Below, in pieces: positions 36,054 through 50,897 of a stretch of DNA of 50,897 nucleotides. Position 1 is the stretch's first letter; each line of letters starts with the position of its first letter. Origin of the DNA: an uncultured Clostridia bacterium (GTDB lineage Bacteria > Bacillota > Clostridia > UBA1381). A program made the position numbers and the translations under genes. The notes beneath the pieces were generated by a model. The model was given only the letters and a program-made list of their open reading frames with translations, was not told the DNA's origin and ran no database searches. The stretch is taken from NCBI GenBank assembly GCA_904395315.1, contig CAJFNT010000064.1:1-50897 (forward strand). Direction: 5' to 3'.

Positions 36054-36082
36054 TTGAAAAAAAATCAGAAAAATGATATAAT
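36054..36082 (+). promoter_or_regulatory. sigma-A promoter of the decarboxylase operon
   Basis: TTGAAA, 17-bp spacer, TATAAT with the TG of an extended -10. The -10 is also the first part of the repeated leader element. The 150 bp before it are AT-rich and show nothing else I can name. Confidence 0.75.
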
Positions 36083-36187
36083 AAATACTATACAAGAAAA
36101 TAAATCCGGCAAGCGGATTTATTTCGAATGTATTTATTGTATCGGTGTAAAGCAATGCTATACGCATTGTGCTGATGATATAATAAA
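36074..36187 (+). repeat. Repeated leader element, copy 1
   Basis: This 114-bp stretch is colinear, without gaps, with 50044-50157. It begins at the TGATATAAT -10 box and ends at a second TGATATAAT 102 bp later. It holds a variable stem-loop (AAATAAATCCG/CGGATTTATTT), an invariant TTTATTGTATCGGTGT block and a CAATGC/GCATTG hairpin. In this position it forms the 5' leader of the mmdA-like gene. The ORF 35970-36200 that crosses it is not conserved as protein, since copy 2 has stop codons in that frame. Confidence 0.8.
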
Positions 36188-36244: not shown

Positions 36245-37795
36245 ATGGGAACAGTTGATAAATTGACTGAGCTTCAGTACCGCAGAAGCAAGATAGAGCA
36301 CGGCGGCGGTGAAGCAAAAATCAAAAAACAGCATGATTCCGGCAAAATGACCGCCAGAGAGAGGATCAATGCTCTTATGGATGACGGAAGTTTTGTTGAA
36401 GTCGATGCTTTTGTCAGCCACAGATGTACCGAATTCGGTATGGATGCGGTCGAGGCTCCGGGGGAAGGTGTTGTAACAGGTTACGGGACCGTGGACGGAC
36501 GCCTTGTTTTTGTTTATTCACAGGATTTCACAGTGATCGGTGGTTCGCTGGGCGAGATGCACGCTAAAAAGATCTGTAAGGTCATGGATATGGCTGCAAA
36601 GATGGGTGCTCCTATCGTTGGTATGAATGATTCGGGCGGCGCGAGAATACAGGAAGGTCTTGATGCTCTTTCAGGTTTCGGAGAGATTTTCTATCGTAAT
36701 ACAGTAAACAGCGGAGTTATACCGCAGATATCTGTGATAATGGGACCTTGCGCGGGAGGAGCTGTATATTCGCCGGCTATAACCGATTTTATATTTATGG
36801 TGGACAAAACTTCTAAGATGTTTATAACGGGTCCACAGGTAATAGAATCTGTAACGGGTGAAAAGGTTTCGGCTGAGGAACTTGGCGGCAGCTCGGTGCA
36901 TGCTTCAAAGTCCGGAGTATGTCATTTTACAGCGCCGAATGATGCGGGGTGCATAGAGCAGATAAGGAAACTCCTTTCATATCTGCCTTCAAATAATCTT
37001 GAGCAGGCTCCGTATGTTGAGACAGGTGACGATATAAACAGACTTTCCGAAAAGCTTACTACCATAGTGCCGGATGATCCAGGAAAGGCTTATGATATAA
37101 AAGAAGTGATCGCTGAGATCGTTGACAATGGGGAGTTCTTTGAGGTACAGGAACAGTTCGCAAAGAATATAGTTGTTGGATATGCGAGAATGAACGGTAA
37201 TACGGTGGGTATAGTTGCAAATCAGCCGAGAGTAAAGGCGGGTTCGCTTGACTGTGATTCATCGGATAAGGCTGCAAGGTTTGTAAGAACATGTGACAGC
37301 TTCAATATCCCGCTCATAACTCTTACAGATACACCGGGATACTTCCCGGGAGTTGATCAGGAACACGGCGGTATAATCCGTCACGGTGCAAAGCTGCTTT
37401 ATGCATACAGTGAGGCTACTGTGCCGAAGATCAACGTTATAATAAGAAAAGCTTACGGCGGTGCTTATATCGCTATGAGCTCAAAGCATTTGGCTACTGA
37501 TATAGTAATGGCATGGCCTACAGCGGAGATCGCGGTCATGGGTCCGGAGGGCGCTGCTAATATCATTTTCAAGAACGATATCAAAGAAAGCGATGATCCG
37601 ATAAGGACAAGAGCAGATAAGATACAGGAATATAAGGACAAGTTTGCTACGCCGTTCATGGCTGCACAGAGAGGTTATGTTGACGACGTTATAGAGCCTG
37701 ATTCGACAAGACCGAGAATAATTGCGGCGCTTGAAATGCTCCAGTCTAAGCGTGATTCAAGACCTGCGAAGAAGCACGGCAATCTCCCTGTATGA
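36245..37795 (+). CDS. mmdA: Carboxyltransferase (methylmalonyl-CoA decarboxylase/propionyl-CoA carboxylase type)
   Basis: An acyl-CoA carboxyltransferase. It transfers a carboxyl group between an acyl-CoA (methylmalonyl- or malonyl-CoA) and biotin. The two crotonase-like halves are visible, with GGSLGEMHAKKICKVMD, GAPIVGMNDSGGARIQEG, GPCAGGAVYSPAITDF, then LTDTPGYFPGVDQEHGGIIRHGAKLLYAYSEATVPK and RKAYGGAYIAMSSKHLATD. Length 516 is standard for the 12S/MmdA type. AACGGAGG lies nine bases before the ATG. It leads a five-gene operon with oadG-like, biotin carrier, oadB-like and a ketoacid-type carboxyltransferase, so it probably works as the CoA-substrate half of a Na+ pump or transcarboxylase. 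Confidence 0.92.
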   Translation: MGTVDKLTELQYRRSKIEHGGGEAKIKKQHDSGKMTARERINALMDDGSFVEVDAFVSHRCTEFGMDAVEAPGEGVVTGYGTVDGRLVFVYSQDFTVIGGSLGEMHAKKICKVMDMAAKMGAPIVGMNDSGGARIQEGLDALSGFGEIFYRNTVNSGVIPQISVIMGPCAGGAVYSPAITDFIFMVDKTSKMFITGPQVIESVTGEKVSAEELGGSSVHASKSGVCHFTAPNDAGCIEQIRKLLSYLPSNNLEQAPYVETGDDINRLSEKLTTIVPDDPGKAYDIKEVIAEIVDNGEFFEVQEQFAKNIVVGYARMNGNTVGIVANQPRVKAGSLDCDSSDKAARFVRTCDSFNIPLITLTDTPGYFPGVDQEHGGIIRHGAKLLYAYSEATVPKINVIIRKAYGGAYIAMSSKHLATDIVMAWPTAEIAVMGPEGAANIIFKNDIKESDDPIRTRADKIQEYKDKFATPFMAAQRGYVDDVIEPDSTRPRIIAALEMLQSKRDSRPAKKHGNLPV

Positions 37796-50023: not shown

Positions 50024-50052
50024 TTGCCTAAATCGAAAGTTTGTGATATAAT
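50024..50052 (+). promoter_or_regulatory. sigma-A promoter of the GLUG protein gene
   Basis: TTGCCT, 17-bp spacer, TATAAT within TGATATAAT, the same -10 and context as in the mmdA leader. Confidence 0.75.
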
Positions 50053-50157
50053 AAACACAGTTAAGTAAATAAAGCAGTGGAATGGCTTTATAATTGGATG
50101 TGTTTATTGTATCGGTGTGTAGCAATGCTAAACGCATTGCACTTATGATATAATATC
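50044..50157 (+). repeat. Repeated leader element, copy 2
   Basis: Colinear with 36074-36187 over 114 bp without gaps. The invariant TTTATTGTATCGGTGT, the GCAATGC/GCATTGC hairpin and the two TGATATAAT boxes 102 bp apart are kept; the upstream stem differs in sequence (ATAAAGC/GCTTTAT) but is still a stem. It forms the first half of the leader of the GLUG-protein gene. Confidence 0.8.
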
Positions 50158-50226: not shown

Positions 50227-50897
50227 ATGAAAAAGACAGCGAAACGATTTACGGGCTGGCTGATCGTGCTGGCGATGTTGATAACGCTCCTGCCTACGGG
50301 CGCGGGCATGATTACGGTCAGCGCCTACAGCGGCAGCGGCGGCGAAGGTACGTCAGGCGCTCCGTATCAGATCTCTTCGGCGGACGACCTGAGAGAATTG
50401 GCGGCGGCGGTTAACGGAGGAGAAACCTTTCAGGGCGTATATTTCGAGATGACTCAGGATATCGACCTCGAAGGAAGCGAGGAGAACCAGTGGACGCCGA
50501 TAGGAGGCTACGGCGCGAATACTTCGCTTCAATTCCGCGGAACTTTCAACGGCGGCGGCTATGAGATAAGTGGACTGTATATCAATAACCGCTCCGCCCT
50601 TTATCAGGGCTTGTTCGGCTATCTCGGCGAAGGCGCAGTGGTACAAAACCTCGGCGTGTCCGGCTCTGTTGCCGGCTATTACCATGTCGGCGGCGTGGTC
50701 GGCGAGAACCATGGTACGGTAAGCGGCTGCTATAACACCGGCGATGTAAACGGCAGTTATAGCAACGTCGGCGGCGTGGTTGGAAGAAATTACGGAATAG
50801 TAAGCGGTTGCTATAACACAGGCGAAGTTAGCGGCGGCAATGTGCATGTCGGCGGCGTGGCCGGCTATAATGCCGGCTATGGCGACGTAATCGATAG
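50227..50897 (+). CDS. GLUG-motif secreted surface protein (3' end beyond the window)
   Basis: This ORF is not in the track because it runs off the right edge. The ATG follows AGAGGAGG. Residues 1-33 are a signal peptide (KKTAKRFTGWLIVLAML ... ITVSA). After a Gly/Ser stretch comes APYQISSADDLRELAAAV and ENQWTPIGGYG, typical of GLUG/adhesin proteins, then repeated motifs of the form VGGVVG-N-GTVSGCYNTGDV at roughly 24-30 residue spacing (three copies are visible). Such beta-helical repeats are found in surface adhesins and in some IgA-peptidase-like and cell-wall-binding proteins. It has higher GC and Gly content than its neighbours. The full length and C-terminal anchor are unknown. Confidence 0.85.
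   Translation, partial: MKKTAKRFTGWLIVLAMLITLLPTGAGMITVSAYSGSGGEGTSGAPYQISSADDLRELAAAVNGGETFQGVYFEMTQDIDLEGSEENQWTPIGGYGANTSLQFRGTFNGGGYEISGLYINNRSALYQGLFGYLGEGAVVQNLGVSGSVAGYYHVGGVVGENHGTVSGCYNTGDVNGSYSNVGGVVGRNYGIVSGCYNTGEVSGGNVHVGGVAGYNAGYGDVID

Follow-up and report, generated by a model that had tools for sequence, protein, structure and literature searches.

What is a folded sequence of about one hundred base pairs doing twice on the same contig, each time behind a -10 box and each time ahead of a different gene? The question is raised by the window analyzed in the present study, a stretch of 50,897 nt that is one contig of the 2.56-Mb draft genome of an uncultured Clostridia bacterium. 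The initial annotation had placed a repeated element at 36074-36187, upstream of mmdA, and at 50044-50157, and had favoured a structured regulatory RNA leader (riboswitch or protein-bound) common to a regulon, with a small non-autonomous repeat among the other candidates. Both copies do lie there, with a conserved core and real hairpins. We conclude with good confidence that they belong to a family of non-coding mobile elements of ~102 bp, which insert in a single orientation, and without target-site duplication, into existing sigma-A promoters at their extended -10 box (TGNTATAAT).

Insertion into existing promoters

The mmdA gene is present in 16/16 genomes of the genus, and its promoter is free of the insert in all 15 others. 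In the closest relative, G014, the empty site reads ATTGAAAAAAAATCAGAAAAATGATATAAT followed directly by AAAGAATAAGG, whereas in the window 102 bp separate ATTGAAAAAAAATCAGAAAAATGATATAAT from AAAGACTAAGG; because the flanks in G014 are nearly identical to those of the window around a single TGATATAAT, the difference is a precise, clean insertion of 102 bp at the extended -10 box of mmdA. Empty orthologous sites were likewise found at six other loci (seven in total), namely those of C92 (empty in G014), LDH (G007 and G000), the C27 gene (G007, G000 and G003), rex (G003, G009 and G001), glgB (G014, G003, G009, G001 and G006) and the L086 gene (G000 and G007). Judged by these sequence comparisons, the insert is derived and was put into promoters already existing, since the orthologous sites are empty at mmdA and six more loci.

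It had also been noted that the -10 box is repeated exactly 102 bp later. The 102-bp spacing of the TGATATAAT boxes holds in both window copies, but the two are not a true repeat of one box: on the evidence of the following loci, the left box belongs to the host, whereas the right one forms the 3' end of the element itself. The empty C92 site reads TGCTATAAT, and the filled one has TGCTATAAT as its left box and TGTTATAAT as its right box, with a guide base A pairing with T; at L086 the orthologue in G000 reads TGGTATAAT, and the filled site has TGGTATAAT on the left and TGATATGAT on the right, with guide base T. Since both loci have the former target as left box and an element-borne right box, the boxes do not represent a target-site duplication. 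The guide in question is an internal 8-nt segment, ATTGTANC, which pairs with the right box of the same element and shows a statistical match to the target box. Where the boxes are readable and differ at the variable base N (18 of 133 units), 15 units have a guide that pairs with the right box and 3 one that pairs with the left, and in the alignment of 89 first units the guide has a Watson-Crick match at N with the right box in 85 and with the left box in 70. An exchange point between TGNTA and TAAT was also considered, since right boxes vary there like natural -10 boxes; it found no support, as the empty glgB and L086 orthologues carry TATAAT.

Promoter targeting and the guide

Units always stand 3' of TGNTATAAT and before unrelated genes. 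TTG occurs exactly 17 bp upstream of TATAAT in 40 of ~101 first units, compared with 1-4 at any other spacing tested, and this exact spacing identifies the targets as sigma-A promoters. The complementarity of the guide predicts the target, as the statistics support. In G007, 17/18 target boxes have N=T with guide A, whereas among background TTG-N17-TGNTATAAT promoters without the element (A16 G15 C11 T5) T is found in 5/47 (p=2.3e-10); in G004, 9/9 units with guide C sit at N=G, against 17/90 background promoters (p=1.8e-6), both backgrounds being counted over the first listed sites of each genome. Shuffling targets within genomes gave 53.2 +/- 2.0 matches, compared with 62 observed.

Folded structure

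The suspicion of a structured fold proved justified, and the covariation test that had been proposed came out positive over 89 units. Four helices covary: P1, between the segment just after the left box and a middle block; P2; P3, between the guide in the middle block and the right box; and P4. The two hairpins described earlier are thus real, and P1 and P3 come in addition to them. In the 89 units 95.8% of the cells in P1-P4 are paired, 18/27 pairs change on both sides, and doubly changed cells amount to 268, compared with 62.5 after shuffling and 20-40 in slid versions. Opposite the third base (T) of TATAAT the guide always has G, where A would make the better pair. If transcripts start, as expected, about 7 nt past the -10 box, then the P1 5' strand falls at about -6 to -1 relative to that start, for which reason the folded strand is likelier to be single-stranded DNA than mRNA.

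The copies in the window and in the source genome

All features of the two window copies lie on the + strand. The host promoter of the mmdA operon (36054-36082), insert-free in 15 congeners, comprises a -35 box TTGAAA (36054-36059), a 17-bp spacer and the extended -10 box TGATATAAT (36074-36082), which is the pre-existing target and left box. Copy 1 (36083-36184, 102 bp) was delimited by the filled/empty comparison with G014, by nhmmer and by a covariance model, its exact ends being ambiguous within the 9-bp direct repeat. Its P1 pairs AAATAC (36083-36088) with GTATTT (36130-36135), and P2 (ATAAATCCG/CGGATTTAT, 36100-36122) is the upstream stem of the initial annotation; then follow the guide ATTGTATC (36136-36143), complementary to both boxes and with its invariant G opposite the third base of TATAAT, the P4 hairpin GCAATGC/GCATTGT (36152-36170, with covariation in 7/7 pairs) and the element-borne right box TGATATAAT (36176-36184), which pairs with the guide as P3. 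Downstream lies the open reading frame of the mmdA-type decarboxylase alpha subunit (36245-37795), with orthologues in 16 genomes.

Copy 2 (50053-50154, 102 bp; blastn, nhmmer and covariance model) follows a host promoter, read from the sequence, at 50024-50052, with -35 TTGCCT (50024-50029), a 17-bp spacer and left box TGATATAAT (50044-50052). Here P1 pairs AAACAC (50053-50058) with GTGTTT (50100-50105), covarying with copy 1 and others, P2 is TAAAGC/GCTTTA (50070-50090) and P4 is GCAATGC/GCATTGC (50122-50140), both supported by covariation; the guide is again ATTGTATC (50106-50113) and the element-borne right box TGATATAAT (50146-50154). The gene behind it, which by frame reading encodes a secreted repeat-type protein, starts at 50228 and runs off the contig at 50897.

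The block TTTATTGTATCGGTGT, described as invariant, is indeed exact in both copies, and the chance expectation for it with <=3 mismatches in the window is 0.4 matches. Within the genome, blastn with copy 1 as query retrieved a third copy, on contig C171 (E=8e-20), as well as copy 2 (E=7e-18). Two copies at two promoters therefore stand as described, while the genome total is corrected by the covariance model to five: the two of the window and single ones on C171, C92 and C41, that on C41 being degenerate. By frame reading, the genes 3' of these copies are unrelated (mmdA-type decarboxylase, secreted repeat protein, N6-methylase/helicase operon and secreted CAP-type protein). One copy in this genome, L058:3727-3842 (-), occupies the promoter of an apparent restriction-modification operon with N6-methylase and helicase-like genes.

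Occurrence, arrays and variants

The proposed search of the rest of the genome and of related genomes yielded, besides the five copies above, copies in 22/61 relatives (consensus blastn search), and the loci collected contain 167 unique units. Copy number ranges from 0 to 34 per genome within one genus (model R1), and the same model has matches in 13/70 genomes of the family. In a class-wide sample searched with model R2, carriers number at least 18/391 genomes, scattered across the class in at least ten families, a lower bound since nine candidates per genome were scored. Named carriers include Candidatus Ornithomonoglobus, Avimonoglobus, many Clostridia metagenome-assembled genomes and the cultured Sedimentibacter hydroxybenzoicus DSM 7310. 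The viral contigs, plasmids and phages searched held zero copies, and none of the fetched loci contained a longer copy with a gene between the left and right ends.

Tandem arrays are common, with a period of mostly 99-104 bp and one box shared by adjacent units, and all arrays examined point towards a same-strand gene where one was found. Among adjacent unit pairs, 6/34 are at least 95% identical and 18/34 are below 85%; given this span, the arrays likely arise, as far as the sequences tell, both by local duplication and by serial insertion of different copies. What is apparently the same locus holds one unit in G046 and two in G059.

Several variants were encountered. In L168:5852-5913 (-), L196:96-159 (+) and L080:1463-1517 (-) most of the P1-P2 hairpin part is gone, with guide, P4 and right box kept; these short copies are either deletion derivatives or a shorter form. 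A subfamily of G007 (L064, L085, L132, L209, L213 and L216) has the right box TGTCATAAATA or TGTTATAAATA, with an extra A, and guides CGAC or similar, and its right-end register seems shifted by one base. Another subfamily (L065, L066, L068, L101 and L252) has an extra A in the guide, ATTGATATC, in which the invariant G would be bulged rather than wobble-paired. Promoters with TGNTATAATAAACACAAT or similar and no element behind occur at L119:2537-2557, L118:2411-2445, L079 and L081, possibly as excision or deletion footprints keeping the element's first bases.

Alternative explanations

The regulatory leader favoured initially would account for the covarying structure, the promoter-proximal position and the orientation, which is that of the gene, yet such a structure is equally expected of a folded mobile element. 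Instead of being conserved at orthologous genes, the element is missing from the orthologous promoters of mmdA, where promoter and gene are conserved without it in 15/15 congeners, and from six other loci; the genes that follow the copies are unrelated, copies vary from none to dozens within one genus and stand in tandem arrays, and P1 reaches upstream of the expected transcription start. Furthermore, Rfam 15 gave no match in the window at the gathering score and chance-level matches only at a relaxed threshold, which agrees with the earlier remark that no known riboswitch class was recognised. We consider a riboswitch or protein-bound leader very improbable, although a secondary effect of the element on expression is possible. 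The small non-autonomous repeat, by comparison, is the candidate borne out by the empty promoters, the arrays, the patchy occurrence and the unrelated downstream genes, the copies being non-coding, dispersed, and present or absent at orthologous sites. We give hardly any credence to a classical miniature inverted-repeat transposable element (MITE) moved by a DDE transposase, with the boxes as its 9-bp target-site duplication: a 9-bp direct repeat does flank the insert, and many units have identical left and right boxes, but in the filled sites of C92 and L086 it is the left box that matches the empty target, whereas the right box differs from it and pairs with the guide; the target is always TGNTATAAT-like, and the two ends of the element do not form an inverted repeat.

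A non-autonomous member of the IS200/IS605 or REP/RAYT type, transposed as single-stranded DNA by a Y1 (HUH) transposase in trans, would share with our element a right end built of guide, hairpin and cleavage-site-like end in that order, a target flanking the left end, the lack of duplication and a retargetable guide logic (PMC6006769, PMC8266576). We regard it as unlikely, the guide being 8 nt instead of 4 and serving both ends, with no GTAG foot and no copy with an internal gene; nor did a profile search detect Y1 (PF01797) in eight carriers (G007, which has 34 copies, G004, G041, G027, G008, G005, G000 and G052), though its past presence is possible. Less probable still is an RNA-guided recombinase system, such as an IS110-like bridge RNA or a group II-like reverse-splicing RNA with an exon-binding guide. 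A base-pairing guide, a programmable target and the absence of duplication recall IS110 (PMC11208160), and the invariant G opposite T, as a wobble, would suit RNA; on the other side, the IS110 DEDD recombinase (PF01548) is absent from G000, G004, G005, G007, G027 and G052 (it is present in some other genomes), reverse transcriptase (PF00078) is absent from G000, G004, G007, G008, G022 and G052, and a transcript started at the element's own left promoter would lack the 5' strand of P1. None of the three profiles is common to the copy-rich genomes. These absences also weigh against insertion of a mobile element at -10 boxes, as do several other points: transposition is inferred from species-level comparison, a search for an empty site orthologous to that of the copy at 50044 found none, the crossover lies at an ambiguous position somewhere inside the 9-bp repeat, and the background promoter counts are partial as stated. 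Moreover, the guide-target match could partly reflect co-adaptation after insertion instead of target choice, which is less likely because the empty orthologues keep the same N.

Proposed mechanism and implications

For the mobile element, we propose that the guide 5'-ATTGTANC-3', lying between two hairpins, would hold the element's right box and, during transposition, pair with the TGNTATAAT of the target promoter. This pairing may direct breakage and joining in the same register, much as IS200/IS605 guides set cleavage sites, with an enzyme presumably acting in trans. As the new 3' end would again be TGNTATAAT, the site would be regenerated, and serial insertion, plus some local duplication, could then build the tandem arrays. 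The role of the -10 box as insertion target accounts for the position of the copies at promoters; the promoter retains its -35 and -10, with insertion mainly lengthening the 5' leader, and this retention would explain the persistence of copies upstream of housekeeping genes.

We put forward only tentatively, as somewhat short of an even prospect, that these are a new class: gene-free, guide-carrying elements of ~100 nt that home to promoters by pairing between guide and -10 box, mobilized by an enzyme that is not among the known guide-using transposases and forming a natural, retargetable insertion system of minimal size. In such a class the guide may perhaps pair with the strand exposed in the open promoter complex. 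Narrow term searches of the open-access literature found no described -10-targeted small element. The family lengthens the 5' leaders of many genes while sparing their promoters, with a target preference legible in the element itself; should the target be set by guide pairing, this would be a natural guide-directed insertion system of very small size, and its enzyme would merit a search. A further caution is that mobile DNA can pass for covariation-supported "leader RNAs" at promoters.

Comparison with known systems

MITEs and BOX-type repeats are non-autonomous repeats of ~100 bp near genes, which have modular or tandem forms and may affect expression. Our element resembles them in size, in lacking autonomy, in standing near genes and in its tandem forms; unlike MITEs, with their terminal inverted repeats and target duplication, it uses the host's own -10 box, unduplicated. 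REP/BIME/REPIN sequences are likewise small, dispersed palindromic repeats with hairpins, moved in trans and sometimes clustered, whereas the present element lacks the GTAG foot (the consensus before P4 reads GTGTGWAGC), has a fixed promoter target and one orientation to the gene, and no RAYT was found with the Y1 profile.

In IS110, base-pairing guides match donor and target, and target preference covaries with the guide (PMC11208160); here too the guide matches both ends and target preference follows it. IS110, however, has separate target and donor loops and an encoded recombinase, while the element has one short guide, no gene, and no IS110 protein in several carriers. Most is shared with IS200/IS605 (IS608, ISDra2 and non-autonomous derivatives), in which cleavage sites are chosen by retargetable guide sequences 5' of hairpins: insertion 3' of a short target without duplication, a right end repeating the target, end hairpins, and guides pairing with target and right end, here a statistical match (PMC6006769, PMC8266576). 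The order of target, left hairpin, guide, hairpin and target-like right end, with the site regenerated, is IS200/IS605 logic, yet the element is ~102 bp and gene-free, with a single 8-nt guide for both ends, an extended -10 target, common arrays and no Y1 in copy-rich genomes. We therefore make no claim that it belongs to the IS200/IS605, IS110 or retroelement families, the first of which it follows in the manner of its insertion and the design of its right end.
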